Shown here: positions 2,853-43,206 of the stretch, piece after piece
Position numbering within the stretch: position 1 is the first letter of the stretch
Layout of the letters: every line of letters begins with the position of its first letter
DNA from: a virus
Reading direction: 5' to 3' (one strand)
IMG/VR virus record: IMGVR_UViG_3300035034_000635
Span: 1 to 43,206 of that record
Length of the DNA: 43,206 bases
Notes under the pieces: generated by a model
Told to the model about the DNA's origin: nothing
Database searches by the model: none
The model's input: the letters and a program-made list of their open reading frames with translations, nothing else
Program-made: the position numbers and the translations under genes

Positions 2853-2854
2853 AG

Positions 2855-3929: not shown

Positions 3930-3937
3930 AAGTCAAA

Positions 3938-4126
3938 CTATTTTAGGGTTTGTTTACTTGTTTTTGCTTTAATCTGAGTGATCATGCCATCAATTTGGTC
4001 TTCTGTTATATGAAAAGTTTCCAATATTGGTGCACCAATTTCTCTAATGTAATCAACATTAACTCCTAGGTTTTCTACTTCTTTGATTGTGGCAAATACT
4101 ACTAAGGCTTCATCTCGTGTAAACAT
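3938..4126 (-). CDS. Small hypothetical protein
   Basis: 62 residues, mostly helical by composition (FTRDEALVVFATIKEVENLG, then HITEDQIDGMITQIKAKTSK), no membrane segment and no cysteines. It starts two bases after the C1q-like fibre gene stops and precedes the phospholipase-like gene. Its place directly after the fibre would fit a small fibre chaperone or an assembly factor, but nothing in the sequence proves that. AT content is slightly higher than in its neighbours. Confidence 0.6.
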   Translation of the reverse strand: MFTRDEALVVFATIKEVENLGVNVDYIREIGAPILETFHITEDQIDGMITQIKAKTSKQTLK

Positions 4127-4128
4127 AT

Positions 4129-5526: not shown

Positions 5527-5538
5527 AAATTAGTGATG

Positions 5539-6432: not shown

Positions 6433-6433
6433 A

Positions 6434-6823
6434 TTATTCGTTGCTTGAGTTAACAGCATCAACAAACAATTGACCTGCGGTGTACCCACTCACGATAGCG
6501 GTGAGCCAGTTAGCCCCGTTGGTATCCATTTCTAAGTTGCGTACTGTGTTGGCTGTTAGTACCACACCGTCGTCCCCTGCGATCGTAGATCCGTCTTGTA
6601 AATCGATCACTCGGACAAAATCCCAGCGGTTAGTTGGTGAAGGTGGTAGAGCAAAGTTTGGCGCTTCTTGCTGTAGCGACATCGCAAATTTAACCGTACC
6701 AGCAAAGTTGCCAGCGGTTGCAAGTGATATAACGGTTGTCCGTACATCAGTGACTAGGATCGGTCGGCCGACGCCATTTGCGGCTTGAGCATCGAAGATC
6801 GGTTGTGGGTCTTGGTTCAACAT
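6434..6823 (-). CDS. Hypothetical virion protein following the capsid gene
   Basis: 129 residues, no membrane segment, no cysteine. It has beta-rich composition, with PILVTDVRTTVISLATAGNF and FVRVIDLQDGSTIAGDDGVV, and ends ANWLTAIVSGYTAGQLFVDA. It is the first gene after the hairpins downstream of the major capsid gene and abuts the coiled-coil gene (start 6432 overlaps near the stop at 6434). A head-completion or decoration role is suggested by position only. Confidence 0.6.
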   Translation of the reverse strand: MLNQDPQPIFDAQAANGVGRPILVTDVRTTVISLATAGNFAGTVKFAMSLQQEAPNFALPPSPTNRWDFVRVIDLQDGSTIAGDDGVVLTANTVRNLEMDTNGANWLTAIVSGYTAGQLFVDAVNSSNE

Positions 6824-12317: not shown

Positions 12318-14294
12318 CTAAGATACTGCTACCTTAGGCGGTTGCGTATTGGTTCGCCGCTGGGGAGTAGCGGGTGCTGCTCCACCAGGGTTACTTCCTA
12401 TTGTACCCTCTAATCCCCCTTGTAGCATGTCCATTATGTTCATTTTTGTGAAGAACTTTGTGTAGTCTTCATTGATCATGATCGCAAAGCGTTGTTTCAA
12501 GTACTCCATGTTGAGTGCTTCGGGACCAAACATCTCCATAGCAGTACGCACATTCTGAACAAACAATAGCTGAGATAGCTTGTCGTTGCTCTTTGGTGTT
12601 GGGTTAATGATGATAAACCACTTGTACTTCTTTGATCGAAGGGTAGTCGGGTTAATGTAGCGCAATCGCACTGGCTTACCCTGTTCTTCACTCATACGTT
12701 CTTCCTCGTCATATATTTCACTAGTGGTAGGGAAGGGTTCATCTTGCAGTCTAAAGGCCTTGGTGCCGCTCTTGCCGCTCTCCACGGTACTCTCAACACT
12801 GATCTTCCGATACTTGTTCTTAGTACCAAGCACCCCTTCCTGCACTTCCGTCAACTTACTATCGATCGGTGCCGTCCAGTTAACGATAATGTTATCCAGT
12901 CGCAACCAGTGTAGCCTGCGTTCAAAGTTAACCACCCCGTCGAGTGAGGATCCTAGCTTCTGCATCTGCTGCTGCTGCATGATCTCGGCCTGTCCCAAGG
13001 TATCAACTCCCCCTTGATCGTTACCTGAGTACACATCGTTGGTAGTCTTTTCGTTAATACTCTCTTTGATCAAGTTATAAAATGAAAATTCAGACGTCTT
13101 AATACCCAAAGCTTCCGCTGGTAGTAGCGAATGAAACGTGTTCTTGGTCACATTCTGGGTCATCGTTCCAGCTAGAAAGACACCTGGACTAAAGGCTTGA
13201 TCACCCGTGTAGCCCATAGGCGGCTTCCTCGATTGTCGTACACCTGTCACCATAAGGGTAGTGAGTTCATCGATCACCGCTTGATCGACCTTAGTCTTAG
13301 CAGGTTGGCTCTTTGAAATAGCAAAGCCACTGATCGGCTCCAGCTTCCCTTGCGCTAGTGGGATCTCCCCTGAAGGCCACAGTTTCGTTAGTGGGAAGTT
13401 AGACGGCAGGAATGGTACCCCGTTGAGGTAGATCTGGTAACGGTTCTGGCTCTTGATCCATAGTCGCACCTCTGAGACTGATTGTGGACCAGTATTAAAC
13501 ATTGCCCACGACTTGCTGTAGATCCCTGCAGACGTTGTAATATCTTTATCTTCGGTAGTGTCGATGCTCTGCGGTACGTTCTTCCAGCGATCGAAGTGTC
13601 CGTAGCGAGCTTTAGCAGTACCGCGCGGAAGGATACGGCAGATAGCGACAATGTCCTGATCCTCGATGTACTCGATCGACATATCCCCTAGATACACCAT
13701 GTTCCCTTGGATCATCACAGTAGAACAACCTGAGCTGATCAGTTTGTTCATTGACTTGTACTGCAGCTTGGTAGGTGCCTTGGTGACGTCCCACTGGACT
13801 TCGGTTAACGGTGTGTGGCGGTACTCCTCGATGTAGACTTCCTCGGTAAACACATCTCCTTGACTGATCAGTTCGCGATAGATGATCGGCCGCTTCTTGT
13901 GCCAGTCTTCGATCTCTCGTGACTTCTTAATTAGATCGGTCATGTTGTCACCCAACTCTGCAACCACCATATCTTCTTCATCAAAGCCAGTCACATCGCC
14001 CTCGGCGCTTAGGTTGAGTAGGGTAGATAGCAAGGTAGTGTCCTTCTCACGGGTAGTACCAGTAACAATACGGATATCTTCCTTGTTTTTCTTAGCAGGG
14101 ATATACGATAGATCGTTCTTACGGTTACTCTCGTAGTACTGGGCACGGTTCATATCGTCCAGCTCTGGGTAGGATCGGTTAAAGACCTCACGTAGATCAC
14201 ACATTGTTGCACGGTCAGCCGCCTGGGCATCAAGCTCATCTTGAGCGTATGCTGGCTTGACTATTTTCCCGTGTGTTGTTATCGCGGTTTGCAT
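12318..14294 (-). CDS. Portal protein
   Basis: 658 residues, located directly after the large terminase gene, as portal genes usually are. The sequence has the pattern of large portals of short-tailed phages: an N-terminal wing region, a mid region with EDWHKKRPIIYRELISQGDV and YIEDQDIVAICRILPRGTAK, and a long C-terminal part with helical EAEIMQQQ-type glutamine stretch (DTLGQAEIMQQQQMQKLGSS) and stem-like segments. It ends in a Pro/Thr/Ala-rich tail (GGAAPATPQRRTNTQPP). The product forms the dodecameric DNA channel at the head vertex and the docking site for terminase. AAAGGG lies five bases before the ATG, one of the better ribosome sites here. Confidence 0.75.
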   Translation of the reverse strand: MQTAITTHGKIVKPAYAQDELDAQAADRATMCDLREVFNRSYPELDDMNRAQYYESNRKNDLSYIPAKKNKEDIRIVTGTTREKDTTLLSTLLNLSAEGDVTGFDEEDMVVAELGDNMTDLIKKSREIEDWHKKRPIIYRELISQGDVFTEEVYIEEYRHTPLTEVQWDVTKAPTKLQYKSMNKLISSGCSTVMIQGNMVYLGDMSIEYIEDQDIVAICRILPRGTAKARYGHFDRWKNVPQSIDTTEDKDITTSAGIYSKSWAMFNTGPQSVSEVRLWIKSQNRYQIYLNGVPFLPSNFPLTKLWPSGEIPLAQGKLEPISGFAISKSQPAKTKVDQAVIDELTTLMVTGVRQSRKPPMGYTGDQAFSPGVFLAGTMTQNVTKNTFHSLLPAEALGIKTSEFSFYNLIKESINEKTTNDVYSGNDQGGVDTLGQAEIMQQQQMQKLGSSLDGVVNFERRLHWLRLDNIIVNWTAPIDSKLTEVQEGVLGTKNKYRKISVESTVESGKSGTKAFRLQDEPFPTTSEIYDEEERMSEEQGKPVRLRYINPTTLRSKKYKWFIIINPTPKSNDKLSQLLFVQNVRTAMEMFGPEALNMEYLKQRFAIMINEDYTKFFTKMNIMDMLQGGLEGTIGSNPGGAAPATPQRRTNTQPPKVAVS

Positions 14295-25959: not shown

Positions 25960-27096
25960 CTACAGCCGCTTCAAGCGGAAGAAGCGGATCGGGAAGCCGC
26001 CTTTATCTTTGTAGCGCTTTTCCCACGACTTCATGGTGAAGTTCTCTAGGAAGTGCCCGTCTTGGAAGCTGTCGTTTGACATGATGATGTCATTCTCTCC
26101 GACGATACCGACGTGTCCGACGATTGATCCGTTACCTGTTGCGGTTGGTGAAATGATGATGTCACCTGGTAGTGGTGAGGTCACCAGTTCAAACCGTTTG
26201 TCAGTGCGGAAGCGTTCGTCTAGCGTCCATGTCCCTGTAATGATCGGGAAGGGTATAACCTTCCGTAAGATATTGCTCACTGTGTCCGCGCAACCAAGCT
26301 CATCGGGTGCTGCGTCGTTTGGTGATGCATCTGATCCTAGCGCGGCTCGTGCGGCCTTGTGGAGCTTCTCACGGTTAGTCTCTACGTTCTGTGCTGCGAT
26401 GTTTCGCTTGAGTAGTCCAATTACTTGGGTTGCTAGTGAGATCACATACTTCTGCAGGGACCAGTTCTCAAAGCTCACCACCTGGAAGACTTTGCCGACG
26501 TCCTTCTCGACGTAGTCCATATGGTGTGTGATCAGTGTGTCGTCTTTGATCCCTAGTTGGACCGCCAGCTCCTTGCGGCGCCCTGAGAAGTGGGTAACCG
26601 CGTGCCCTGCTTCATGCAGGAAGATCCGTACCCGTTCTGTGATCCGTACCTTGCGCCCTACCATGGGATCGTAAACCATTCGAGTGCGGTGTCGTGACGG
26701 CATTTCGTCTACATCTGCTTCCAACCAACACTCCATGATCGTGTTCTTATCAACAAAGTACGCGCCACCAAAGGTTGGTGTCACACCCCAAGCGATCTTC
26801 TCATCTTCCTGCATGTGCCACGCGATCATATTCTTCGACGGGAACAATCGGATCACGTTGTTGGTGATGTTGTTGGTAAACCAACTCCACGAGAACATAC
26901 GTTTGCCGTCTGGGCGGGTGTATGTCTGTGGGTGTTCGCGGCGGATCAACTCGTAGTCGATCACGATCGGTTCGATCACGTCGCAAAACTTTGCTTGGTT
27001 CATCACCCTATGGATCAGCGCCAGCTCGTCCTTTGTCCAGTCGATAGGTGAGGTCGAGACGATGATCGGTTTTAGTTTGAAGTTTTCTTGTGCCAT
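25960..27096 (-). CDS. Peptidase with HEAGH metallo-motif and C-terminal cysteine-peptidase-like domain (endolysin candidate)
   Basis: 378 residues. The N-terminal about 250 residues contain FLHEAGHAVTHFSGR (His161-Glu-Ala-Gly-His165), the zinc site of gluzincin metallopeptidases, in a context like a lumped toxin-type or gp-type protease. The C-terminal about 115 residues look like NlpC/P60 or CHAP peptidases: ELGCADTVSNILR (Cys269), PLPGDIIISPT, then GSIVGHVGIVGE (His328) and IIMSNDSF (Asn341). Cys-peptidases of this type cut peptidoglycan stem peptides. Position beside holin candidates supports an endolysin; the metallo domain could instead process virion proteins. The fusion is uncommon. 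Confidence 0.7.
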   Translation of the reverse strand: MAQENFKLKPIIVSTSPIDWTKDELALIHRVMNQAKFCDVIEPIVIDYELIRREHPQTYTRPDGKRMFSWSWFTNNITNNVIRLFPSKNMIAWHMQEDEKIAWGVTPTFGGAYFVDKNTIMECWLEADVDEMPSRHRTRMVYDPMVGRKVRITERVRIFLHEAGHAVTHFSGRRKELAVQLGIKDDTLITHHMDYVEKDVGKVFQVVSFENWSLQKYVISLATQVIGLLKRNIAAQNVETNREKLHKAARAALGSDASPNDAAPDELGCADTVSNILRKVIPFPIITGTWTLDERFRTDKRFELVTSPLPGDIIISPTATGNGSIVGHVGIVGENDIIMSNDSFQDGHFLENFTMKSWEKRYKDKGGFPIRFFRLKRL

Positions 27097-27106: not shown

Positions 27107-27259
27107 TTAAGCGGGAGCGTTCCCGTCAATACCGTATGCCGATAGTATGATCCAGCCCACAAAGATGAAGCCTGCGACTAGCCACAGATCCTCACTATCG
27201 TAGCCATAGAATAGGCGAGCGGTGTGAATAACGATTGTATCTTTAATTTTGTTGAGCAT
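27107..27259 (-). CDS. Small single-pass membrane protein
   Basis: 50 residues if ATG 27259 is used; a frame extension to 27289 overlaps the giant gene more deeply. It overlaps the stop of the giant gene by 17 bases. One transmembrane helix (LWLVAGFIFVGWIILSAYGI) and a short basic cytoplasmic part (LNKIKDTIVIHTARLFYGYD). It might be a holin or holin regulator before the peptidase gene, 10 bases downstream. Confidence 0.6.
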   Translation of the reverse strand: MLNKIKDTIVIHTARLFYGYDSEDLWLVAGFIFVGWIILSAYGIDGNAPA

Positions 27260-30200
27260 TTGCTTGTTTGATTGCGTCTTCCAAGTCATCGGTAAGACTG
27301 TTGCTAAAGAACACTGGGACCCTGGTTCCTGCTTGTGTAGTGATTTTCGTACGTCCTGGTTTGTAGAATTCGAGGAAGGCTTCCTCTCCTATCTCCGCAC
27401 GCAACTCCATGAGGTAAGTGACCTTCTCGGCGTTGGTGTTAATTTTCATTATGTCATTTATGTACTCATTGTCCATACCGTACTGTCGGAAAGTGGCCAA
27501 TTCTTTGCGTACATTGTTGCGTTGGATATCACTTGCAGTCCCGTTGTATAGATCCTGAATAAGCTGGTTTTCTATAGTCTTTATGGCTCCAGCGTTCTTT
27601 GCGCTCGCGTCCCAGGCGGTGATCGCATCTTGGTACATTTTATCCCCACCGTATGTCCTGATGTAGTCTGTTGTCTCGGCGATGATCCCTTGTGCGCGCA
27701 TTTCTTCTTGTTTTACTCGGGCGGCTTCGATGTCTCCCCGATTCACCATTCCACGGATCGTACGTGACCCCTCAAGGCGTTCTGCTGAGGTTTGATCGTC
27801 TAGTCGCCACTCCTTACTCTTTTGCTCCCATAAGGTGCTCTCACGGGTAGGTACGAAGCCTGTAGCGCGGATGATCGCTTCCCAGTTGTTGTACTTGTAC
27901 GTGTTCCCGTCGAAGTCTTGTAGTGGTGTACCGCTGATTGAGTGCACCCCGTGCTGCCAGCCGTTGTATGCCTTGATTGGGTTCGCGAACATGTCGGGTA
28001 GTCCGCGGCCTAGCGCTTCCATGTATCGCTCTTGACCTGCCAGTGCAATTGCGGACGGTAGTCGGTTAAACAATAGTCCACCAACCGCTCCAAGGTACGT
28101 CCGCACGTCGGCTGGATTTTCTGCAATACTTGATACTGCCAGTAGTTCGATACCCACTCGGCTCGATAGATCGATCCCGACGGTTGCAGGGATCCCGCGC
28201 TTGATCGCAATTTCCCATAGTGCCATTTCTTCCTTCAAGATGTCGTCTTCTTCCAGTCCAGCGATCTCTTGAAAGATCATGATCAGTAGCTTGGCAAACG
28301 GTAGCGCTGTTACTCCCCCGAGAAGGGTTGTGTACATCATCTTCCGAGACAATGATACAAACTCTCCTTGCTTTGCATCGCGATATAGCTGGTACAACAA
28401 TGATCTGATGTAATGCTGGAAGACAAACAATACGTTGATCTTTCCGCGCAACATTCTTGGTCGGTGGTGTCGGCCGTAGCGGAAGTGTACGTCGTTTGAT
28501 ACCTCTAGTGCCTTAGTGTTGGCCACTTCTGGTGACAGTCCTTGCTCCATAAAGATCCGTCTGGCGGCTAGGAACATCGGTACACGGTTGATGTTTTGCT
28601 CGATGATCCCTGTACTCTTGTACATCACCTGGTTGAACTTAGAACTGATCTCACTGTATAGCGGGTTGTTTTGGAAGCCCATAAGCTCGGCTGTCATTTC
28701 CGCTCCCAGTTGACCCTTCTCTAGTAGCCCTTCGATCGCTGCCCGTTCTTCTGGCTTTAGTCCTCTACTCTTAATCGCCCAGTCGTTTGTGGCTTTGATG
28801 AGGTACGCTTCTGGCTTCCACGCTTTGTCTGATCCGTCCACATACTTTGATAGCTCACCCATACCCACTGTCCAGTTCTGTGTGGCGTTAGTGGCTAGAT
28901 ATGAGATATCGTTTGCTAGGTACCAAGCAAAGGCTAGGGTTCGAGCGGCTTGCCATTCTGGTTTGTTGTTGAGCTTGTACGCGACTAGATCACGGACCCA
29001 AGCAAAGAATTGTGGCTGTCGGCGCGCGTCGATGTTAGCCATAGCGTTAAAGTACTCGGTTGACCAGCGCATCTTAGTGACATACCCACTAAACCCACTG
29101 AAGTACTGCGCTAGGATCTGTTCGGTGTTCTCTGTGTCGTACCCGCGGACCCCTGATCGTCGTAGATAGTGACGCCCAAAGCCTTTTTCTTTGAACATGT
29201 CCGATAGGTTGTCTCGGAGTAGTTGTGCGACCTCGTCCTTCACGTAGCCGTTCTCCTTCATGTTCTCGATAACAGCACCCATTTTTTCTTGGGTTAGTTC
29301 ACTACCTGAGAAGAAGTCCACCTCAAGCGATGTTAGTTTGTCTACCGCGTACCGTACTGTGCTATCTTCGTTGGCGTCCATCATTTCCTTCTGGTACTTC
29401 AAAGCTTCCTTCTCTGAGGCAAACGGCTGCATGTCCCACGTCTCGTAGCTGGCCGACATTTCCGTCTTGCGCTGTGACTTCACAACAAACGTTTCTGGGT
29501 TCATGTTCACCCCTGGTAGTTTGTTGAGGAACTTGCGTACACCCTTCTGCGGTGCAACCCACTTGTGTGGCATGTATCCAGTGCGCTCCTGTCGGTACGC
29601 TTCGATCTCCACTGGATCGATCCCCTTGGCCGCCATTTCTCGTAGCAACATTTCGTGCGCTGTCTCCATTCCGTCTCGGACCGCCTTGTACGCCGCGATC
29701 TGTTCGGTATCAAGTGCGCTCACCAGTTGTGCTTCGGTGAAGTTTTTACCCATATCGTCACCTTCCCATAGCATTTTAGATACCTGATCGCGTTTCGCGG
29801 TGGGTAGTTTCATGTACGGCGATAGCTTTGCGGCGAAGAAGTCGTCCATTTTGTTCTTGTCTCCGTCGTGAAGCTCCCCGATATCCTCGATAGTTTTAGC
29901 TACTTCAAACTGCTTTGGATCCTTAAGGTATAGATCTCGTGCCTGGGCGGTCACATTCTCTAGCGTGTTGATGTCCTTCATGATGAAGTTCAACTTGTTT
30001 TCGTTTTGGAACACAGCGTTGGTCACAACCTCATCTTTCGGGATCACCGCCTGTAGGTAGGCTGCACGCGCGGCTCGATCGTAGTCTGCCTTATCTGCTT
30101 TTAGTTGCCCGAAGTCCACGTACTCCAGCCCTTCTGTGGTTTGGAACATCACGTTGGCTTGTCGCACTGGGTTTGCCCACAGTGAAATAACTGGTCGATC

Positions 30201-33200
30201 GGGGGTTGCTCCACCTTCTGCCAGTACATCGTAGAAGTCGGCTACCTGAGCCTTTAGGTCTGGGTTATTGCCAAATAGATTGCGGATCCCCATTACTACG
30301 TCCTTAAGCTTACGATAGAAGCGCTCCATGATGCTGTTCTCGTATAGGTTGTTGTATGCTTTCTCGGCTAGGTATCGCTCGAAGCCATACGCTACCAGTT
30401 CTTCCAGTGCGCGATCCTGATCCGCGAGTGCTTTCTTGCGTGCATCTGTCTCTGTCATACCTTCCGCCACGTACTCCTTGTACAACTTCAAGTGCTTAGC
30501 GTTTAGTTTCAGTGGTGATTGCCCCTCATTCATAGCGGTGAGGATCGATCGGCGTGTCATTCCTTCAAACTCGGGGATATTCTCGATGTTCTTGATCACC
30601 TCGTGCACAAACTCATGATCCGACGTTGTACGCCCGACTTCATCTGTCATGTAAATACTGTTTTCGTACTGTGCGGCGTACGCATCAGTCTCGGCTAGCA
30701 TTTTGTTGCGGATCTTCTCAGCTTGTATAAAGATCCGATCCACTGGGACCACGGCAAAATCAAGTTTGAAACGTTCTTTGTATTCCTCTAGCTTCTTGAT
30801 AGCGTCCTTCTGGCTCGTTGCTTGCGCGGTGTACTTCTGAATAAACAGTTCTTTTTTAGCCTGCTGCATCGTCATATCTCCTGCCTTCACTTCTTCCAGC
30901 AGCTTCTTCTTCACGTTGAGGACCCGTGATCCTTTAACCAAACCACTTTTAGTGTTGTATTCCCCTTCACTGATCCAGCGTACAAACTTTCCTTGTTTAT
31001 CGCGGACTGGGAAGGCTGATAGGGCATAGATTGGGCGGTTTGCGATCTCGTTACTGATATGCATCTGCCACCACGTCACACCTTTCTCGTCGGTTACCTT
31101 CTGAGCGCCGTAGTTAGTCGCTAGATGCTTACCTACCTGCCGTTCGTAGAACTTGTAGATTGGGTTTTCAGTGTCAACTGAGCCTGAGATATCAAAGCTC
31201 TCTACAAAACTAGCAAATGGTGTTACATCTAGTTCGGTTTGATTTGCTGGTGGTAGTTTATCAAACTTTACCTTTGGTATTGCCTTAAACTTACCGTTAC
31301 CTGTCACTTCTGTAACGATCCAGCGAGTATCCCGATCGTCAAATACGTCTTGATCTGTTAACTCTAGGCCTGGCTTAAGATCCCTAACTTTAAGTGGAAG
31401 TCCAGTGTTCATACTTGACCAGTTGGCTGTAGCTCCCAAGCCCTCGATCTTCATCGCTGTTTCACCTACTGGGAACTGTAGTGTGTGCATACCTGCTTCT
31501 GATGCGTCTTTGATCTCCTTGCGGATTACATACTCCCACCACGTGTTGCGGTATGTCTGCATCTTCTCAATCGCTGGTGCGCGCTCTGCGATCCGTCGAT
31601 CTAACTCAGCTTGCCCGATATCAGCTACACTCTCATTCCCTTGTAGTACACCCCACTGTCCAGCTTCCTCGGTTAGTCTTCCTTTCTGCATAAGATCCGA
31701 CTGCATTTCAATGATCCGTCGTGTACCTGATGTTGCGTACCCTGGGTTTACTCCGTCGGCGGCGTACCCGTCGGCCATATCTTCATAGCGGGTGTGCGCA
31801 AAGTATCGATCTGATTGTGGTAACCCTGTGTGTACCTTACCTGCACTGTTCATGAAGTCACTTTGGTACACTCGCTCGTTGTAGTTATATACGGGACCGC
31901 GCACTTCATCTGGCAATACCACGTTGATATATGATCCCCCTGGACCGTCACCGATCTCATCTGGCTCATGCTCGATGTAGTCAAGCAATACCAGCTCGTC
32001 ATTAACCAGCTCATTGAGCTTTTCAATGATGATGTTGCCGTCGGCGTCAATTGCTAGTGGGTTCTCGGCTGCCGATCGGATAGTATCCTTCTCGATCTGC
32101 TTGATCCCTGCACGATTCAGTAAATTAGTGAGTGTTTCGGGTTTGATCGTCTTGCCTTTCACTTCATCATTGATCGCTTCTAGGGTTGCGAGCGTCACGG
32201 TGTCGGCTTCTACCATTTGGAACATTGGATCGTCCCCTAAGAATAGCTTGTTGTCGTCCTCTGTACGCTCTTTGATGTAACTTCCGTAGTCAGTGGGCCT
32301 AAACGTCGCAAAAGATGCTTCACGCTCCTTGCGTGCCCTCTCAAGCGCTGTTTTCTCTGTCTCTGTCATGGCGTCAAGCTCAGCTTTCATCGCTTCGATG
32401 CGCGCTTCACTCTCCACTTGGGAAGAATTGATCTCGGTTACGTCAATTCCCTTGTCTGCTAGTTCTTTCTTAAGCTTCACCAGCTCCTCTTGGTATCGCC
32501 TAGCGTTATCCAGCACCCACTTATCGCGGTACTCTGATACACTGTCCTCAGCTGCCCGTTGTGTCCACTCTCTCGCCTTTGATACCGCTTCGACGTATTT
32601 CTTATTCTTCCTGTGCTTCATGGCAAAGTCCGCTTCCTCACGCTTGATCTCAGCCTGCAGTCGTTGCGTCTTCTCCTTGTACAATACCCGCACCTTCATT
32701 TCGGGATCGGTCATAAGATCAGCCACCATGTCGCCATACTCAATATCACCTGCATCGATGTAGTCTGTCCCGACGCGCTGGCTCTCCTGGTATCGCACTC
32801 GCTTCTTCTCAATAGTCTGCGATAGGAAGATGTCAAACGTATTTTCGGTAAAGTACTGGCTGATACGCACGTTCTTCCACTGGTTACCCTGCCGCCATGC
32901 GCGCCCGATCACCTGTCGTACCGCGGTGAAGTTCCACGGGTTACTCAAAATTGATAGGTCGGTGGTCTTCTCCTGCAGGTTGATCCCTTCCTCGATCGCT
33001 TCGTTACCGATAATCACGCGCACCTTCCCAGCGTTAAAGTCGTTTTGGATTGTAGATCGCTGTGGTTTCCCTGTTGATCCTGTGATCAGCTGCACCTCGT
33101 CTGCCTTAAAGCCCTTCTCCTCAACCAAATACTGTTTGATCAGTGGTAGATACTCTTTCCCACGACTTGAATACAAGATGTGGTTACTGTCGGGTACATT

Positions 33201-36200
33201 GCGGTACGTTTCTGCAGTCATTTCTAGGGCCAGCTTGATCTTTGGTGAACCTTCGACAAACTCCTTAGCACTTGGTACGGGACCAGTGTAGAACTGTGAA
33301 ATGTAGGGAGAAAAAGCGATCTTCTGTAGCTCCGTCATAGCCTGTAGCGTCCCTGCTTCTGGTAGTTCAAATAGATCCTGAGCTTGTTGCTTGAACTTGT
33401 ACGACATTTCATTTTCTGGGACCACGTATTCCCGTGACTGCCTGGTTGGGCGCACGATCCCTGCTTCTTCTCCGTCTCGGAAGTCAATAAACTCTCGTAG
33501 TAGTGACTGGAACTGGCGGGCGTTAGTGAAGCCGCGGACGTCCAGCTTCGAGTCAAGTGTCCCGTCGGCTTTTACTTCATCACGCGCTACCACGTCCATG
33601 TACATTGTCATGAAGTCGTTAACGTTTCGGATCCCCATTTGGGTCATACGTTCCCGCGCGAATAGCGATAGGATTGAGTAGTACTCCAGTGGGTGATTAG
33701 TAAACGGTGTAGCAGATAGCCCGATCACGTTACGCCCGTTGTTGTTCTTCATGATGTACTGAGCCGCCAGCCATAGCTTGATCCCTGAAATAGACGGTGT
33801 CTGTGAGAAGCCGCGGAACTCTGATACTTTTTTATTGTCGGCGGTCTTTGCACTCGCGATGATGTGGTTGTAGTTGTGGATCTCATCGACGGTAATAGCA
33901 TCGAAGCCAAGATCCTCGAATGATCGCTCACCACTAGTACCAGCTTTACCTTTACCGATTGTCTCCTGGGTACCAGCTTTATCCTTCTCTTGCTGGCGCT
34001 TTGTCTTACGATCGTTAGGATTTTGGATCACGTCGTTCAGCTCACTAGTGAGATCCGTGTAGGTTTCATCGGTGAAGCCAAGCTTTTTGAAGCCGTCCTC
34101 GGTAATAACACTCAATGATCCGTCGGGGATTGATAGGGTAGATAGATTGCCCTTAAAGTCTCCGCCTAGGTTGGCTAGCTCGTTGATCTTAATATCTGGT
34201 TTCAAGTGTTTGATCTCACTCAACCACTGTCGGTATACCGATACACTCGGTAGTACGATCAATGGTTTCTTGGACCAGCCACGCTCTAGCAGTTCGATGT
34301 TAGCGACGATCCCCTGCATAGTTTTACCTAGTCCCACGTCGTGCGCGAGTAACCCTACTCCCTTGTTTAGCAGGAAGCCTAGCCCTTGGCGTTGCACCTC
34401 ACGGATCTCTAGTGGTCGGCCTTTGAAGGTGGCGTTTAGTTTACTTACCAGCGGCACTTGGCGGTAGTCTGGTCGGGCGTATGAGTTGAACTGTTCGTTA
34501 AAAGCATCTTCTACGATCGCTCGATCAGTACTTGATAGTTCTTCGGTTAGGTATAGGTTGAACAATTTATTACCCTCTGTGCGCCGTGTACGCCTGTCTC
34601 GCTCGTTTTGTAGCTTGTCCCCACCTCTGACTGCATTTCCTCTAGTGTAGCCCGTAACGTTGAATTTTGAGCTTTCCCCGAATGCTGCCATCGGAAGGGT
34701 GTCGAGCCACTTCACAAAGTTCTCCTGCAATGATGTGCCGTTTGTTAGCTTGGTGGTGTCGGTAAAGTTAGCGTTGGGTGCTACTCGCATCCGCTCTGCT
34801 GTCATACGATCGGGTAGGACCGCTTCCAACATAGCCTTTTGGACCTGATACTTCTCATCACCAATAGTAGCTTTGTCTTCCTCTAGCGCCTGCATCTTCT
34901 CGTAGATGTTCCCTTGAGCATAGTTGAACTCGTTGTAGTACTTACCCTTCATGTAGAAGGCTTTGGTTTCGTCAAAGTTACCAGCCAGCTCTCCTGTTGG
35001 TGATACATACTGCCACTGTCCTTCTTCGATCATGGCTTTATCGACGGTTGCCATATCGACAATCGCATCGGTTGGGACCGTGTCTACATCATCTGCCCGC
35101 GCGTACCAGTTCTCATTCCATAACTCGGTACCTGTTGGTGACTTCACGTACAGCAAAGATGATCCGTCTTGTGTAACGATCTCACCTGTTTCTAGGGTTG
35201 TGCCCATTTCTCCGTCGTGTACGTGCCGTTGGACTGGATCCCCGACTGATAGGCCAGCGGCTTTAGCCTTTGCAGCTTGATCTCTAGCTTCGGCCAGCAC
35301 TCGTTCAGTCACCCGCCGTGCGCGCTCGGTTTCTGTTGCTTCGGTGGTGGTCATATCGGCTAGATCTTTGTCACTCACTCTTTGTAGATCTGATACGGGT
35401 GTTTCTACTTCGGTGGTAGTCTCGACTGTCTCTGCTACCTCAGTTGCGACGATCGCTGGAAGATCTTTATATAAATCAGTGTCTTGAAATAGCTTGTAGG
35501 CTTCCTCTAGGGTACCTGATACTTGCTGCTCCTCTCCATAGCGGCCGTTTACTGTGCGCGTTTCCCCTAGTACGTGCTCTGGGTTACTGATGAAGTACCC
35601 GTCGGCGCTCATCTGCATTAGTCGCTCCTTCACAATACTCTCTGTCTTAGCGGCTGATCGTTTGAATACCACAATATCTGTTCCGATCCCTGTTGTATCG
35701 AATGATCCGTTGGGTAGTCGAGCAGCGGCTACTAGTTCACCTAGCCGTGCGATCGCTTCCTTGCCGCCTTCCTTCTCTGATGTCCGCAAAAAGCCTGACG
35801 GGACCACCATTGCTACGTGTCCGCCGTCGTTGGTGATGTCCAGTGAGCGCTTAATAAAGTAATTCTCGTAGCGGTTGATGCTCTTTTCTTCTCCAAGGCC
35901 TTTATACAGTCCGCGGTGCGCGCCGTATGGTGGATTGCCGATCACTACGTCGAAGCGTTCAGCTGTCATCTGCTTATTCCCTCGATCATCGACAAATAGC
36001 TGCTCGAATGGTTTAGCGAACATTCTAGCTTCTGGGTGATTGAGCTTAGCGATCTTGGCTGAGATCGGGTTGATCTCGTAACCTGTGATCTTTTGATCAG
36101 TTGGTACGCTGTATAGGAAGTTACCTGTACCGACGGTTGGCTCTAGTACTCGGCTCGATCCTGAGTAGGCGTTGAGGCCGCTTAGGATCGACGCTACCAT

Positions 36201-39200
36201 GTTTACCGCTTCACTTGGCGTGTAGTACTCATCTAGCAATCCGCGCCCTTCTGCACCTGCATTTTCTCTCCCCCCTGCTGGCTGCCATTGGTTAGCGATC
36301 TTCTTAGTCTCGGCGGTTGGCTTACGGTTGTTAGTAAGCAATACTTCCCCCTCGGCTGAGATAAAGGCTGCATCGTTGATCAGTTGCTCTACTTCTTCTT
36401 GGCTTCGTCCGCTGCGGCTTTCCGTTGACCCCTGCTCTCCTGCATTGCCATTTTCATATGCTTCTGTAAGTTCTTGATCGCTGGTGTTGGTTTCTTCATA
36501 TAGTGAAATGATTTGTTTTCTTATAAGTGATGTATCCACCTTGAGTGTGAGATCAAGCTGCTCAAATAAGGCGTCGGCTAGATCCCGTCGTTTGGTTTCA
36601 ATTGGTTTGTTTGGATACGCAAAGCCGCGGACGTCTGCGAAGGCGTCGATCGCGTAGTCGAGATCTTCTCGCTCTCGGGCGTTGTCGGGGATCCAGTCTG
36701 GGAAGGTACTAGATACACCACTGACGTTACCGCGCGCACTGGTTGCATCGTGATCGTAGTACACCTTGTAGCCTGCTTCCGCGATCTCTAGCTCTACCAA
36801 GATGTTACTGAGGACCTCATCTGCCTGGTTGTAGCCGTCCATTCCCTCGATTGGTGGTGTAGCAAGGTAGATTGCCCGCATATCCGCTTCTAGGGATCGG
36901 ATCTGATCTCGGTTACGTTCACCTGGAGTTGGTTGTTTTTTAGTTTTAGTTAAAAAGCCTTGAGACTTCAAGTTACTCGCCCACATAGTGAGGAAGCTAT
37001 CGGTTGGTGATAGATCCTTCTGCCCGTATGGTGCTGTCTCGATTGAGACTGGGACCAGTTGTCCGTCGGCTTCAATCCGCATAACTACTTCGGGATCAAA
37101 CATAACGTCACCATTTTGCAGGTAGTGGTGTCGGATTGTGAGTGTGTCCTTGCCCGCCTGCCAGCCTGGGATCCGTTCTACGGTTAGTGGCATGTACCCC
37201 TCTACCTTCTTAGTGATATGCAAGGATAGATCGGCTAGTGATCCACCTTCTTGTTTCACAAAACTAGCCACTGTCTGTGAGAACTTGTTAGTTTGTTTAG
37301 CGGCGATCTCTACACTCTTTGTGTCTGCTGTCTTTGCGGTTATCACTCCGTCCTTAGCGGTGATTGTAGTAGCTTCATCGGTTGAGAAGTTCTCGACGTT
37401 GTCACTTGGTGCTGCGGTTGGTGTGCTCTCCACCGCTTTACCAGTTACGGGATCAAATACATCGGCTTCAAAACTGCGCACAAACTCGGCTTGCGTTACC
37501 TGCCCGCCGTCTTTTACAAACTGTTCGTAGGCTTTATCTTGCGCTGCTGGTGGTAGATCGGCTAGTGGTGCCGCTACATTGTCGCCAGATCCACTTCGAG
37601 CGCTACTATCGCTGGGCTGATCCTTCCCTCGTGCCACTCTCTCGCTATCGACGCTATCTGGTTTTCCGCCATTATCCTGTCCGCCACGATCTTCATCGTC
37701 ACGTTTGGTATCTCCTTCTTGTCGAAGATCTCCCCGAGTATCGTTATCTTTCGGCTTTGTGGGATTGCTGGTGTCATTGTCTTTATTATTACTATTTGTA
37801 GCTGTTTTGTCAACATCTTTTCTCGTTAGTACTGGGCGCTCGTTAGCTCCACCCTTATCGGCGTATGAAAAGTTAAGGTTCTGGCGCTGGGCATAGTCAA
37901 GTACCGACTTGAGCGCGTCGTCTGTGTTGGTGTCGTTATTGATCGATGCTGCTAGCTTGTTCATAGCAGCGGCTACTCCCCGCGGTAGGGTTTCCACTGG
38001 GACCGTCGGACTAGTTGCAGCTAGATCTTCTACTTCTTTCAGTTGGTTGGTTACCTTTGTTACATCTTCATTGATTTTAACCTTTAGATCATTGGTCTTT
38101 TTCGCCCTAGCTTCGGTAGTTATCTCCGCTTTGATCCGTTCCTCTTGTAACAAAAGATCATCGCGCTGTTGTTGTAGCGCTGATGCTTCGGTATTCTTTG
38201 CTGTTTCTAGCTGGGTGTTGATCGTCTCCACTTGGGTGCTGATCTCAGTGAGCTGTGCGGTTTGGGCTGGTGTAGCGGTTTCTACCTGTGCATTTGGTGC
38301 ACTTATGGGTGCCACCTGTTCAGAAACAGCTGATTTTGAACTTGAGACTATGTCAGCCGCCGCCATGATGTCGGCCATGATGTCGTTTGGTGGTTTTGCG
38401 TTGGCCATTTCCTCTGCCTTGCCCGCTTCTCTAGCTTGTGAGATCTCGGTTTGATACTCCGTGTTGATCACACGCGCTGCTTCGGTGATCACTTCTGGGT
38501 TCTGCTCGGCCATTTCTTCAAACTGCGCCATTTCCTGCTCCAGTGTCATGCCTTCTTCAAACTGCGCTTGTTGCTCTGGTGGTAGCTTCTCGATCATCTT
38601 CTCGACGTAGTCTTGGGTAGCTTCCTCACGCTCTGCTGGTGTCATTGCCTTACCTGCCGCCTGGAATACCAAACCACCAACCATACCAAGAATGAATGAT
38701 TGTTGACTTTCCGTACCAAACGGATCGAACTCCTCGCCGAGTGCCTTCTTTTGAATGTAGCTCTGGTACACTTCTTCTCCACCTTCGGTTACTCCCGCCG
38801 CTCCCATTTCCATGATCTCCATGAGCATACGTGACAGTGGTGTCTTAGCACCTGATACCAGCTTCCCGAGCGGTGTGATCGCCAGGGCTAGCTGGGCTGC
38901 GTCTAGTCCTACTAGCGCCATGTTCCCGCGCAATACCTCACTACCAGCTGTTACCGCTTCTTCTTCGGTCATACCTTTGGCTAGAGCTGCGTCATAGGTT
39001 GCACCAGCTTCCGACATACCTTCAATTGGCCGCATAACCATTGCACCTGCCATAGATGATCCGACTGCGTTCCAAAATGGTGTAGCGCGCGCCATCATCG
39101 CTGTTTTAGATACAGCACCCGCGGTTCCTGCTCCTGGGATCAACATGGCTAGTGAAGGGACCAGCTGTTCTGGTGCCTTAGTTAACCAAAAATCACCGTA

Positions 39201-39716
39201 AGCTAGGGCTGCTACGGGATCTTCGTTAAAAAGACGGTTGATTTCACGTGATCGATCAGTCTCAAGGGCGTAAGCCATGTTCTGCCCTGCATCATCTAGC
39301 CACTCTCCAGCTTTAGTGTAGGCGCCCCACAGTCCTTTGCTTTCATTACGCACTCCTAGCCACTTCACCGCTGATCCAAACATCGATGCAGTGTTACCGA
39401 TACCACGGTTTGCTGATGCCATTACTTCGTTAGCACCCGCTGAGTATGCACTCCAACCGCGCGCAAGGCGGCTCCGTTCTTTATCTGTTTCTGCCTTCTG
39501 ATCGTCAAGGATTGATTGACCAAACGATGCACCCGCTTGTGCAGCTGAACTACCAAGTGCCGAAGACGCTGAATTAACAGTCTCTTGTTGAGCCTTTCGA
39601 TCATATGCTGCCGCGTATTTCTCTGTCGGTGCAGCTTTTTTCTTAGAAATAAAATCTAACGGATTACCAGCAGGTGTAGAATTTACTGGTTTTCTTATGA
39701 ATGAAGGGTCTATCAT
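27243..39716 (-). CDS. Giant polyvalent virion protein: methyltransferase, SNF2 helicase, LPD, metallopeptidase
   Basis: 4157 residues, 29% of the genome. Residues about 180-350 are hydrophobic/Gly-Ala-rich, resembling membrane-active ejection proteins. About 440-950: acidic low-complexity linker. About 1150-1400: DNA methyltransferase (VLEPTVGTGNFL near 1190, NPPY at 1261). About 1760-2350: DarB/SNF2-like helicase (VGLGKT 1794-1799, DEIH 1944-1947, GRAWRQG from 2271). About 2590-2900: large-polyvalent-protein-associated domain (RRIIEMQSDLMQKGR). HEFVH zinc site at 3034-3038. C-terminus (3790-4157): membrane-like helices and a PLxRFG-like end (ATGFVPTRESTLWE). Related proteins (P1 DarB type) are packed into the head and injected to protect DNA. 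Domain borders are approximate. Confidence 0.85.
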   Translation of the reverse strand: MIDPSFIRKPVNSTPAGNPLDFISKKKAAPTEKYAAAYDRKAQQETVNSASSALGSSAAQAGASFGQSILDDQKAETDKERSRLARGWSAYSAGANEVMASANRGIGNTASMFGSAVKWLGVRNESKGLWGAYTKAGEWLDDAGQNMAYALETDRSREINRLFNEDPVAALAYGDFWLTKAPEQLVPSLAMLIPGAGTAGAVSKTAMMARATPFWNAVGSSMAGAMVMRPIEGMSEAGATYDAALAKGMTEEEAVTAGSEVLRGNMALVGLDAAQLALAITPLGKLVSGAKTPLSRMLMEIMEMGAAGVTEGGEEVYQSYIQKKALGEEFDPFGTESQQSFILGMVGGLVFQAAGKAMTPAEREEATQDYVEKMIEKLPPEQQAQFEEGMTLEQEMAQFEEMAEQNPEVITEAARVINTEYQTEISQAREAGKAEEMANAKPPNDIMADIMAAADIVSSSKSAVSEQVAPISAPNAQVETATPAQTAQLTEISTQVETINTQLETAKNTEASALQQQRDDLLLQEERIKAEITTEARAKKTNDLKVKINEDVTKVTNQLKEVEDLAATSPTVPVETLPRGVAAAMNKLAASINNDTNTDDALKSVLDYAQRQNLNFSYADKGGANERPVLTRKDVDKTATNSNNKDNDTSNPTKPKDNDTRGDLRQEGDTKRDDEDRGGQDNGGKPDSVDSERVARGKDQPSDSSARSGSGDNVAAPLADLPPAAQDKAYEQFVKDGGQVTQAEFVRSFEADVFDPVTGKAVESTPTAAPSDNVENFSTDEATTITAKDGVITAKTADTKSVEIAAKQTNKFSQTVASFVKQEGGSLADLSLHITKKVEGYMPLTVERIPGWQAGKDTLTIRHHYLQNGDVMFDPEVVMRIEADGQLVPVSIETAPYGQKDLSPTDSFLTMWASNLKSQGFLTKTKKQPTPGERNRDQIRSLEADMRAIYLATPPIEGMDGYNQADEVLSNILVELEIAEAGYKVYYDHDATSARGNVSGVSSTFPDWIPDNAREREDLDYAIDAFADVRGFAYPNKPIETKRRDLADALFEQLDLTLKVDTSLIRKQIISLYEETNTSDQELTEAYENGNAGEQGSTESRSGRSQEEVEQLINDAAFISAEGEVLLTNNRKPTAETKKIANQWQPAGGRENAGAEGRGLLDEYYTPSEAVNMVASILSGLNAYSGSSRVLEPTVGTGNFLYSVPTDQKITGYEINPISAKIAKLNHPEARMFAKPFEQLFVDDRGNKQMTAERFDVVIGNPPYGAHRGLYKGLGEEKSINRYENYFIKRSLDITNDGGHVAMVVPSGFLRTSEKEGGKEAIARLGELVAAARLPNGSFDTTGIGTDIVVFKRSAAKTESIVKERLMQMSADGYFISNPEHVLGETRTVNGRYGEEQQVSGTLEEAYKLFQDTDLYKDLPAIVATEVAETVETTTEVETPVSDLQRVSDKDLADMTTTEATETERARRVTERVLAEARDQAAKAKAAGLSVGDPVQRHVHDGEMGTTLETGEIVTQDGSSLLYVKSPTGTELWNENWYARADDVDTVPTDAIVDMATVDKAMIEEGQWQYVSPTGELAGNFDETKAFYMKGKYYNEFNYAQGNIYEKMQALEEDKATIGDEKYQVQKAMLEAVLPDRMTAERMRVAPNANFTDTTKLTNGTSLQENFVKWLDTLPMAAFGESSKFNVTGYTRGNAVRGGDKLQNERDRRTRRTEGNKLFNLYLTEELSSTDRAIVEDAFNEQFNSYARPDYRQVPLVSKLNATFKGRPLEIREVQRQGLGFLLNKGVGLLAHDVGLGKTMQGIVANIELLERGWSKKPLIVLPSVSVYRQWLSEIKHLKPDIKINELANLGGDFKGNLSTLSIPDGSLSVITEDGFKKLGFTDETYTDLTSELNDVIQNPNDRKTKRQQEKDKAGTQETIGKGKAGTSGERSFEDLGFDAITVDEIHNYNHIIASAKTADNKKVSEFRGFSQTPSISGIKLWLAAQYIMKNNNGRNVIGLSATPFTNHPLEYYSILSLFARERMTQMGIRNVNDFMTMYMDVVARDEVKADGTLDSKLDVRGFTNARQFQSLLREFIDFRDGEEAGIVRPTRQSREYVVPENEMSYKFKQQAQDLFELPEAGTLQAMTELQKIAFSPYISQFYTGPVPSAKEFVEGSPKIKLALEMTAETYRNVPDSNHILYSSRGKEYLPLIKQYLVEEKGFKADEVQLITGSTGKPQRSTIQNDFNAGKVRVIIGNEAIEEGINLQEKTTDLSILSNPWNFTAVRQVIGRAWRQGNQWKNVRISQYFTENTFDIFLSQTIEKKRVRYQESQRVGTDYIDAGDIEYGDMVADLMTDPEMKVRVLYKEKTQRLQAEIKREEADFAMKHRKNKKYVEAVSKAREWTQRAAEDSVSEYRDKWVLDNARRYQEELVKLKKELADKGIDVTEINSSQVESEARIEAMKAELDAMTETEKTALERARKEREASFATFRPTDYGSYIKERTEDDNKLFLGDDPMFQMVEADTVTLATLEAINDEVKGKTIKPETLTNLLNRAGIKQIEKDTIRSAAENPLAIDADGNIIIEKLNELVNDELVLLDYIEHEPDEIGDGPGGSYINVVLPDEVRGPVYNYNERVYQSDFMNSAGKVHTGLPQSDRYFAHTRYEDMADGYAADGVNPGYATSGTRRIIEMQSDLMQKGRLTEEAGQWGVLQGNESVADIGQAELDRRIAERAPAIEKMQTYRNTWWEYVIRKEIKDASEAGMHTLQFPVGETAMKIEGLGATANWSSMNTGLPLKVRDLKPGLELTDQDVFDDRDTRWIVTEVTGNGKFKAIPKVKFDKLPPANQTELDVTPFASFVESFDISGSVDTENPIYKFYERQVGKHLATNYGAQKVTDEKGVTWWQMHISNEIANRPIYALSAFPVRDKQGKFVRWISEGEYNTKSGLVKGSRVLNVKKKLLEEVKAGDMTMQQAKKELFIQKYTAQATSQKDAIKKLEEYKERFKLDFAVVPVDRIFIQAEKIRNKMLAETDAYAAQYENSIYMTDEVGRTTSDHEFVHEVIKNIENIPEFEGMTRRSILTAMNEGQSPLKLNAKHLKLYKEYVAEGMTETDARKKALADQDRALEELVAYGFERYLAEKAYNNLYENSIMERFYRKLKDVVMGIRNLFGNNPDLKAQVADFYDVLAEGGATPDRPVISLWANPVRQANVMFQTTEGLEYVDFGQLKADKADYDRAARAAYLQAVIPKDEVVTNAVFQNENKLNFIMKDINTLENVTAQARDLYLKDPKQFEVAKTIEDIGELHDGDKNKMDDFFAAKLSPYMKLPTAKRDQVSKMLWEGDDMGKNFTEAQLVSALDTEQIAAYKAVRDGMETAHEMLLREMAAKGIDPVEIEAYRQERTGYMPHKWVAPQKGVRKFLNKLPGVNMNPETFVVKSQRKTEMSASYETWDMQPFASEKEALKYQKEMMDANEDSTVRYAVDKLTSLEVDFFSGSELTQEKMGAVIENMKENGYVKDEVAQLLRDNLSDMFKEKGFGRHYLRRSGVRGYDTENTEQILAQYFSGFSGYVTKMRWSTEYFNAMANIDARRQPQFFAWVRDLVAYKLNNKPEWQAARTLAFAWYLANDISYLATNATQNWTVGMGELSKYVDGSDKAWKPEAYLIKATNDWAIKSRGLKPEERAAIEGLLEKGQLGAEMTAELMGFQNNPLYSEISSKFNQVMYKSTGIIEQNINRVPMFLAARRIFMEQGLSPEVANTKALEVSNDVHFRYGRHHRPRMLRGKINVLFVFQHYIRSLLYQLYRDAKQGEFVSLSRKMMYTTLLGGVTALPFAKLLIMIFQEIAGLEEDDILKEEMALWEIAIKRGIPATVGIDLSSRVGIELLAVSSIAENPADVRTYLGAVGGLLFNRLPSAIALAGQERYMEALGRGLPDMFANPIKAYNGWQHGVHSISGTPLQDFDGNTYKYNNWEAIIRATGFVPTRESTLWEQKSKEWRLDDQTSAERLEGSRTIRGMVNRGDIEAARVKQEEMRAQGIIAETTDYIRTYGGDKMYQDAITAWDASAKNAGAIKTIENQLIQDLYNGTASDIQRNNVRKELATFRQYGMDNEYINDIMKINTNAEKVTYLMELRAEIGEEAFLEFYKPGRTKITTQAGTRVPVFFSNSLTDDLEDAIKQANAQQN

Positions 39717-39724: not shown

Positions 39725-41122
39725 TTATAACCCACCGCCGATGATACCTTGTCTATGTTCTTCCCACCTTTCTGACATTGCCGCTGTTGGGACCGATGAG
39801 CGGGTGGTTTGGTTCGTCATTTCGATAAACCAACCTGGTGGCGTTTCGGTGTAATAGCCAAGTTCTCGGAGATCGGTAGTTACCTTAGATCGTTCAGCGC
39901 CATTAAGCTCATCGATAGTCTGCGCGCCTTGGATCACGTTTTTAGTAATAGGATCTACGTCGTCTTCTTCTTCTTCACTCTCATCTTTAGCGGCCTTAGC
40001 TGCTGCTCGGTTCTCGGCTGCCCATTGTCGAGCGTTTGAGCTGTCACGGTTCTTAATCGTGTTGCGCAAATTCTCTGACTGTAGATCCTTGTAGTCTTTA
40101 TCCTGGGCTGCCTTAGTGACTTCACCCATAAGAATATCAATATCGACGCCAGTTTGCTTACTGTACGCCTGCAGGAACTCCATACGCTCCTCATCTGTTT
40201 CGTATGAGTTGAGTTGATCGGCGATCGCTGGTGCGGCTACTGATGCTCGATCCATAGACATGTCGAAATCTTGCTTTTGTGCATCACGCTGCGCCTTACG
40301 TTCATCACGGATCGCTTTGTCTCTCGCAACCGCGTTGTCGTAACTATCCTGCACTTGTTTCTCCATTGCAGATTTAACCTGCTGTACTTTATCAAAGGCT
40401 GAGTTAAACCGTGTGAAGTCGTTATCTACCTTAGCCTGATCCGCTTCGGCGATCGCCTTAAGCATCTCCGCTTCAATCGCGATCAAGCGTTCTTGGCCTG
40501 ATAGTTCTTCATCTGTGAGGATACCACTAGCAAACTCATTGGCGTACCTAGTGACACCGTCTCGATCGTTGGCTACTCCCTTAGTAGCTAGCAAGCGTTT
40601 GTTGGCGTCTTCCATGTTGGTGATACGCGCGCCGTAGATCTTTTTAGTAGCATCGATCAAGTCTCGGTGTGCTCGATCAGCAAACTTGGTGATGCTGTCG
40701 TAGGTAGACATGAGATCGTTGATCTGTCGCTCACTCGATTCACGGATATCCCTTTGTTGGTCGTCGAGGCCTTCAAATGGATCGTAAACGCCTTGATTGT
40801 CTTTATTGGTAGTAGCAGGCGGATTTGCGTTTGGATCGGTACCTTGGCCACTTCCTGTGCCTGCAGCGTCACGTGTAGCAGTAGTCTGCTCGTCGTATTT
40901 AGACATATTCTTCTCTGTCTCATTACGAAGCGCGGTAGTTGAGCGTTGTAAGTTGTTATCTGGGACCACCAAAGATCCACCAGCCTGAATAACGTTTGGG
41001 TTATTGATGTTATTAGCCTTGGCTAACTCCTTAACTGATGTTCCGTACTCTCGCGCGTAAAACGACAAGGTTCCTTTACCTGTCTTGCTGTCAAACGGAT
41101 CGATTGTGATGGTTTTTTCCAT
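39725..41122 (-). CDS. LysM-containing coiled-coil virion protein
   Basis: 465 residues. The N-terminus has a LysM-like module (residues about 17-55: GTLSFYAREYGTSVKELAKA, NNINNPNVIQAGGSLVVPDN), which binds peptidoglycan. The rest is charged and helical with an extended coiled coil (LDDQQRDIRESSERQINDLM; FNSAFDKVQQVKSAMEKQVQ; RDERKAQRDAQKQDFDMSMD). A disordered Gly/Thr/Asn linker separates them (AAGTGSGQGTDPNANPPATT). Encoded directly before the giant protein gene (nine-base gap), it is probably an internal or ejected virion protein that contacts the cell wall. Confidence 0.65.
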   Translation of the reverse strand: MEKTITIDPFDSKTGKGTLSFYAREYGTSVKELAKANNINNPNVIQAGGSLVVPDNNLQRSTTALRNETEKNMSKYDEQTTATRDAAGTGSGQGTDPNANPPATTNKDNQGVYDPFEGLDDQQRDIRESSERQINDLMSTYDSITKFADRAHRDLIDATKKIYGARITNMEDANKRLLATKGVANDRDGVTRYANEFASGILTDEELSGQERLIAIEAEMLKAIAEADQAKVDNDFTRFNSAFDKVQQVKSAMEKQVQDSYDNAVARDKAIRDERKAQRDAQKQDFDMSMDRASVAAPAIADQLNSYETDEERMEFLQAYSKQTGVDIDILMGEVTKAAQDKDYKDLQSENLRNTIKNRDSSNARQWAAENRAAAKAAKDESEEEEDDVDPITKNVIQGAQTIDELNGAERSKVTTDLRELGYYTETPPGWFIEMTNQTTRSSVPTAAMSERWEEHRQGIIGGGL

Positions 41123-42709: not shown

Positions 42710-43206
42710 TTATCTTTTAAGGTAGATCGGCTCGTTATCCGAAGTTCTGACATTTTCACCAAATGCTAGGACCTCAAACCGTATATCTGTTCCCTCGGCT
42801 TCAAAGATGCGTTGACGCTCGAAGAAGTCCAAGACTGACGTTGTATCAATCGGTTTTAGCTTGACCAACTGATCCAGTGGCTCCAGTGTTCCCCCTAGTG
42901 GATCGTTACCTAGCTTGTCCTTCCCGATCCCTGATAGTTCCGCTGGGACAAACGATATCTTTTCATCGCTACCGTCGATCTCAAACCGTCGCACATCAGC
43001 TGCACCGCGGTAGTCGTAGTTGATGATGTTCTGGATCACGGTATTACGGGTTGCGTATAGTTCAGTGGCCGCTTCGTCGAAGTTCTTCTCCTTAAACCTT
43101 GATCCGAAGTTCTCATACCCAAAGTGCATAGCACACTTGAATGGTGCGCCCGCATCGTTGTAGCCAGTAAATAGCTCGTATGTCTCGTTCGAGTTGTTTG
43201 AGTGCC
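42710..43206 (-). CDS. Nozzle-like tail protein, C-terminal part (partial; wraps from position 1)
   Basis: C-terminal part of the protein beginning at 1664; the unique coding segment is 42710-43079 and the rest of this span is the duplicated 127 bases. The internal methionine at 43129 is not the true start. The C-terminus contains LSGIGKDKLGNDPLGG and ends LDFFERQRIFEAEGTDIRFE...IYLKR before TAA. The next gene, the glycine-rich adhesin, starts 17 bases downstream, consistent with a nozzle followed by its receptor-binding partner. Confidence 0.65.
   Translation of the reverse strand, partial: HSNNSNETYELFTGYNDAGAPFKCAMHFGYENFGSRFKEKNFDEAATELYATRNTVIQNIINYDYRGAADVRRFEIDGSDEKISFVPAELSGIGKDKLGNDPLGGTLEPLDQLVKLKPIDTTSVLDFFERQRIFEAEGTDIRFEVLAFGENVRTSDNEPIYLKR
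43080..43206. repeat. Terminal direct repeat, right copy (circularisation overlap)
   Basis: Exact second copy of bases 1-127. It should be trimmed when the genome is closed. The coding frame of the nozzle-like gene reads through position 43079 into position 1 without a break, which supports a true circle or a terminally redundant, permuted linear molecule. Confidence 0.9.

Follow-up and report, generated by a model that had tools for sequence, protein, structure and literature searches.

DarB of phage P1 protects DNA and is a head protein with a capsid-targeting signal at its N-terminus (PMC9024508, PMC5512222). It is a methyltransferase-helicase fusion of about 250 kDa, and the protection is against EcoB/EcoK-type restriction. 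In the Bcep22-like phages, with genomes of 61-63 kb, the DarB-like giants (BcepMigl, 4658 residues; JC1 gp69, 4515 residues) have a methyltransferase followed by an SNF2-type helicase, BcepMigl has an HExxH motif between the helicase and the C-terminal region, and lysis genes lie downstream of the giant gene. Virions of JC1 banded in CsCl gave 51 unique peptides of gp69 (PMC9144972). Vibrio phage VvAW1 encodes a giant with the same domain order, gp01 of 3640 residues, in a genome of 38.7 kb. The methyltransferase-SNF2 dyad has been described by Iyer et al. (2017), and the zincin is the commonest polyvalent domain in their account (PMC5512222). Here we describe a gene of this kind in the virus record IMGVR_UViG_3300035034_000635, all 43,206 nt of which were analysed (the window). 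By its sequence, its 4157-residue product belongs, as a new and divergent member, to the known class of giant "polyvalent" virion proteins of the DarB-like kind from Bcep22, BcepMigl, VvAW1, Parlo and other phages, which may be longer than 5,000 residues.

The gene is an uninterrupted open reading frame of 4157 codons, ATG to stop, on the minus strand. At 12,474 nt it takes 28.9% of the record, as an earlier reading of the letters of the window (the original prediction) had claimed. That share was considered as unprecedented and the idea was rejected, since the gene for gp01 makes up 28% of the VvAW1 genome. The record carries a direct terminal repeat of 127 nt (positions 1-127 and 43080-43206), and the genome is therefore probably complete and circularly assembled.

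Two PHROG families were matched by the giant, the DarB-like antirestriction family phrog_10089 (E = 7.5e-85) and the methyltransferase family phrog_11801 (E = 1.4e-105). With tblastn, the enzyme part matched 121 phage records and the tail part 33; among the matches were the DarB-like giants of VvAW1, of Bcep22-like phages and of phages of the Parlo, Lasta and Pavtok types. Most of the giant genes retrieved from known phages encode 3640-5145 residues, many are annotated as DarB-like or PLxRFG, and the lysis genes are mostly downstream. The assignment to the DarB-like proteins, made in the original prediction, is thus borne out by the PHROG and NCBIfam matches, the tblastn results and the order of the genes. 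The distances are considerable: the enzymes are about 24-28% identical to those of the Bcep22-like phages, from which the giant also differs by a DUF6908 domain and an EMQSD module, and identity to VvAW1 gp01 is about 31% in the methyltransferase and 23% in the helicase.

The enzymatic regions gave Pfam matches to Eco57I (E = 1.4e-12) and Helicase_C (E = 1.6e-10), plus ResIII and SNF2-rel, all above the curated cut-offs. The methyltransferase has the N-terminal TP motif (YYTP) and the NPPY of the EcoKI/TaqI-like N6-adenine methyltransferases, matches the HsdM-type structures 5ybb and 3ufb in the PDB, and its motifs are kept in relatives. Fused C-terminal to it, as in the DarB-like dyad, is an ATPase of the SWI2/SNF2 type, in which motifs I, II, III and VI are intact in an alignment with the relatives LE1, L002 and L018; the best PDB matches to its profile are SNF2h and ISWI-type remodellers. 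The claim of a methyltransferase and a helicase therefore stands, with no sign of degeneration in either domain, and the five motifs on which the earlier reading had drawn (NPPY 1261, GLGKT 1795, DEIH 1944, GRAWRQG 2271 and HEFVH 3034) occur where it placed them, each once in the giant. Two of its points were not borne out. No LPD family was matched at E ≤ 1 in the Pfam scans, whereas it had named an LPD block, without a position, and a module of the EMQSD type is found at about residues 2500-2895; as for the membrane modules, a mean hydropathy of 1.6 is reached by one segment only, residues 3797-3815.

The giant is probably a polyvalent virion protein of the DarB-like class that leaves the particle together with the DNA, its methyltransferase and translocase blocking type I restriction by the host. 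It would be made along with the late genes and packed into the head, and after joint ejection the SNF2-type translocase and the N6-adenine methyltransferase would work on the viral DNA as it enters the next host. The family matches, the JC1 gp69 peptides, the example of P1 DarB and the intact catalytic motifs all support this reading, as do synteny and the place of the gene before the lysis genes. The context is morphogenetic, with a LysM-type gene upstream, an endolysin gene downstream and the terminase genes on the giant's strand, and it is from such synteny and from relatives that the virion location is inferred. Several points weigh on the other side. The evidence for packaging comes from homologues (JC1 gp69 and P1 DarB); residues 1-450 gave neither a family match nor a phage match and indicated no packaging signal; methyltransferases of this kind usually follow an LPD36 domain with GXG(G/A/S), for which the Pfam scans gave no match (the LPD36 model is possibly not in Pfam); and antirestriction assays were found for none of the PLxRFG-type giants.

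From its N-terminus the chain consists of an N-terminal region, separated by a 106-residue polar linker from the enzyme part, then DUF6908, methyltransferase, helicase, a cargo slot, a zincin-like domain and a C-terminal region of about 1,000 residues with the PLxRFG tail. The tail was recognised by the NCBIfam model NF032893 with 144.3 bits (E = 4.8e-42; curated cut-off 100 bits). The literal PLxRFG is absent, the alignment placing YMPHKW at the equivalent position, and the cut-off of the model does not need the motif. The same order of cargo enzyme, HExxH and mostly helical C-terminus is seen in the ejected virion RNA polymerase of phage N4 (gp50, 3500 residues), which has HELVH at 2228 with about 1,270 residues behind it. 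The N4 cargo, however, is an RNA polymerase rather than a methyltransferase-helicase, and no sequence homology was detected between its C-terminus and the PLxRFG tail. P1 differs in another way, its metallopeptidase domain being reported in a separate protein, DdrB. The zincin and C-terminal region would form a packaging and delivery unit, with the methyltransferase-helicase and the slot module as its cargo.

Scanning IMG/VR with a profile of the helicase region led to the relatives L087 and L088-L091. The first of these, the 44.4-kb contig IMGVR_UViG_3300028364_000057 (L087), belongs to the same phage group as the present phage, is syntenic with the giant's locus through the neighbouring genes, and encodes a giant of 4281 residues with 45% identity over residues 32-2499 and 46% over 2895-4148; DUF6908 is common to both (E = 9e-16 in L087). 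The others, L088-L091, are about 40% identical to the giant in the enzymes. Between helicase and zincin there is no detectable similarity between the giant (about 2500-2895) and L087 (about 2570-3060), where an ART-PolyVal domain (PF18760, E = 1.4e-14) and a second ADP-ribosyltransferase-like stretch replace the EMQSD module. The interval is also variable in length: HExxH follows helicase motif VI by 763 residues in the giant and 864 in L087 but by 316-356 in L088-L091, L094, L100 and L002, and in all of these it is about 900-1,335 residues from the C-terminus. The region between helicase and zincin thus appears to be a slot for exchangeable cargo, with a clean swap of one module between two giants of 45% identity, and this appears to be new.

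The slot motif RIIEMQSDLMQ recurs in a 971-residue phage protein of the viral contig L167 (pairwise E = 4e-07). In that protein (locus positions 3171-6083) a further HExxH, HEAQH, lies ahead of the EMQSD module.

The junction before the tail was surveyed more widely. Scanning with a profile of the tail brought up 54 viral and 12 genomic loci, and the survey set was 66 giants, isolates included, in which the PLxRFG motif is preceded by 900 residues or more. The junction contained HE(x2-3)H in 36 of the 66 giants and HNHP(x5)S(x2)D in the other 30; none had both and none had neither, although in a few chains the first HExxH counted may be a second, upstream zincin. The search was at first limited to 950 residues, and one case lay just beyond. 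Shuffled junction stretches gave the two motifs at rates of 3.6% and 0.2%, respectively. HNHP(x5)S(x2)D is typical of JAB/RadC domains, and such a domain stands at the place of the zincin in L017 (locus positions 12408-13415) and 29 similar giants. The JAB-like label rests on the conserved motif, because the stretch was without a Pfam match at E ≤ 0.1. Before that motif was seen in them, the Rhizobiales-type giants had been taken to have no junction domain, a view since rejected.

Clustering of the junction stretches at 50% identity gave 16 clusters. At 30% identity the zincins make up 9 groups, and divergence between their clades is great, so the domain holds its place although its sequence changes; all 30 JAB-like cases form one clade, and the zincin/JAB exchange may therefore be a single event. 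A direct view of it is provided by Mwe-JY07 and Atu_ph08, whose flanks are 54% and 58% identical and whose middle parts are unrelated. The metal-site domain goes with the tail and not with the enzymes, since the tail-less methyltransferase-helicases LE1, L096, L098, L102 and L107 have no HExxH, and the tailed MelJY34 has a zincin while the methyltransferase and helicase motifs are absent. Each PLxRFG-tailed giant of the 66 thus carries exactly one metal-site motif in the junction, of zincin or of JAB/RadC type and never both, and this too appears to be new. Neither the slot exchange nor the junction survey was found in the text of PMC5512222 used for comparison.

In the giant the junction motif is HEFVH, which becomes HEMIH in L087. 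Both histidines, the general base and the EE pair of the signature HExxH...EExxA are intact between the two giants, and the EE and GFE residues further along the chain are conserved although local identity is only about 35%. The arrangement of HEFVH and EE fits the gluzincin layout, in which the third ligand is a Glu of the next helix (PMC7213743). An HExxH appears by chance in 2.6% of shuffles of the giant chain. A model from 24 aligned zincin segments, the giant first, had a mean pLDDT (predicted local distance difference test) of 65 and a pTM (predicted template modelling score) of 0.59. In it, strands precede the helix of the HExxH motif and a long helix bearing the Glu follows. Among the 50 VIA-align matches listed, about 37 were zincins as judged by their titles, including anthrax lethal factor, PPEP-1/2, selecase, IrrE/PprI, Spartan and MATCAP, with Z at most 4.7; in Foldseek, no structure of the PDB and no viral model reached E ≤ 0.001. 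The giant and L087 alone gave a model with a pLDDT of 50 and no sheet, so the predicted fold partly rests on the other rows of the 24-sequence model. A hidden Markov model of 32 zincins and hhalign found no significant link of the giant's domain to other clades, the giant's profile consisting of two sequences, and the zincin region had no close relatives in INPHARED, even at E = 10. A zincin fold is supported by the model, not proven. With a modest model, low Z and negative sequence tests we call the domain zincin-like and assign it to no clade. The original claim of an internal metallopeptidase is supported, as a zinc-peptidase-like domain, by the conserved HExxH...EExxA and its position in relatives. 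Two candidates met during these searches were set aside, an Aeromonas match to the zincin region (a short non-virion protein, E = 3, taken as chance) and the sole match to a DNA pattern for DHEFVHEV, an unrelated 293-residue open reading frame.

The zincin marks the junction of cargo and delivery parts, where its role may be cutting, regulating or only structural. Cutting by an internal peptidase, before packaging or after injection, was proposed for polyvalent chains by Iyer et al. (2017) (PMC5512222), so the mechanism of the original prediction is an already published proposal. Applied here, the zincin would be an active peptidase which cleaves the junction during assembly or after entry, separating the tail from the methyltransferase-helicase and the slot effector. 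The signature is kept at 35-46% identity, a metal-site motif precedes the tail in 66 of 66 giants at far above the shuffle rates, its position is kept as the zincin sequence diverges, and P1 DdrB is reported to be processed (PMC5512222). Nevertheless, N4 virion RNA polymerase, whose parts follow the same order, enters the particle uncut (PMC5512222) and has been studied as a single chain of 383 kDa (PMC12633501), ArdC and TraC1 are transferred full length (PMC5512222), and ArdC E229A still functions (PMC7213743). RadC-type JAB domains, moreover, are thought not to be peptidases, and the 30 JAB cases, all in one clade, are possibly one replacement event. We regard cleavage at the junction as possible but doubtful.

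Evidence from N4 and ArdC also speaks for a structural or regulatory domain that needs no proteolysis, as may hold for the C1 domain of the N4 polymerase. The C-terminal region of that enzyme, with the HExxH C1 domain, is an intramolecular allosteric unit which regulates the polymerase (PMC12633501), the protease-dead ArdC mutant works (PMC7213743), and the zincin is replaceable by an unrelated JAB-type fold. It is harder to see why the catalytic histidines, general base and EE pair should stay intact between the giant and L087 while the rest falls to 35% identity, and this role is put forward tentatively. As between a cleaved and an intact chain, the intact ejected chain is the more likely default, because N4 virion RNA polymerase is uncut, protease-dead ArdC works and regulation in N4 takes place within a single chain.

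That the zincin is an effector, injected to cleave some host protein such as a restriction or defence component, is unlikely. Such a role has been proposed for this protein class (PMC5512222), the adjoining slot of L087 holds an effector type, the ADP-ribosyltransferase, and proteases with host-directed or regulatory roles are among the nearest folds, though at low Z; however, no target is known, and the fixed place of the zincin beside the tail despite very different cargo fits an internal role better. A chance HEFVH outside any zincin fold, to which the failed profile comparisons and the poor two-sequence model might point, is very improbable in view of the conservation in L087, the 2.6% shuffle rate, the strands and Glu helix of the 24-sequence model and its zincin-rich structural matches.

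A broader scheme, in which giant ejected phage proteins combine exchangeable cargo, one obligatory metal-dependent hydrolase (zincin or JAB-type) by which the cargo is released or switched on after entry, and a long helical delivery region, is speculative and on balance rather unlikely. The comparative gain is the pair of giants with one clean slot exchange, together with one metal-site motif in every PLxRFG-tailed giant surveyed, and whether an internal peptidase processes polyvalent proteins is now directly testable in culturable relatives (Parlo, VvAW1 and JC1).

Table 1. Coordinates of the giant gene, the regions of its product and the adjoining genes in the window.
Feature	Residues	Position	Strand	Basis or remark
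Giant polyvalent DarB-like gene, 4157 residues		27243..39716	-	Open reading frame check; PHROG phrog_10089, phrog_11801
N-terminal region, Ala/Gly-rich weakly hydrophobic stretches	1-450	38367..39716	-	Kept from residue 32 on in L087
Highly polar linker, probably disordered	630-735	37512..37829	-	81% D/E/K/R/S/T/N/Q/G/P; disorder from composition only
DUF6908 domain	814-922	36951..37277	-	Pfam PF21849, E = 1.3e-19
Gamma-class adenine methyltransferase	about 1134-1405	35502..36317	-	Pfam Eco57I; YYTP 1164, EPTVGTGNF 1192, NPPY 1261
SNF2-like superfamily 2 (SF2) helicase/translocase	about 1716-2320	32757..34571	-	GLGKT 1795, DEIH 1944, SATP 2001, QVIGRAWRQG 2268
Apparent exchangeable cargo slot, EMQSD module	about 2500-2895	31032..32219	-	EMQSD at 2670; ADP-ribosyltransferase in L087
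Zincin-like domain	about 2952-3175	30192..30863	-	HEFVH 3034-3038, EE 3105-3106, putative third ligand E3106
PLxRFG-type helical tail domain	3431-3982	27771..29426	-	NCBIfam NF032893 "PLxRFG tail-700"
LysM/transglycosylase-like protein, 465 residues, upstream neighbour		39725..41122	-	Syntenic in L087
Endolysin-like protein, downstream neighbour		25960..27096	-	Lysis genes likewise follow known DarB-like giants

Elsewhere in the window, a 658-residue protein (12318-14294) at the position of the portal gene was without a PHROG match, and tblastn against 50,697 phage records found no counterpart. A 316-residue protein (5539-6489), which adjoins a gene of the tail-fibre type, gave a weak match to a methyltransferase PHROG (E = 3e-4).

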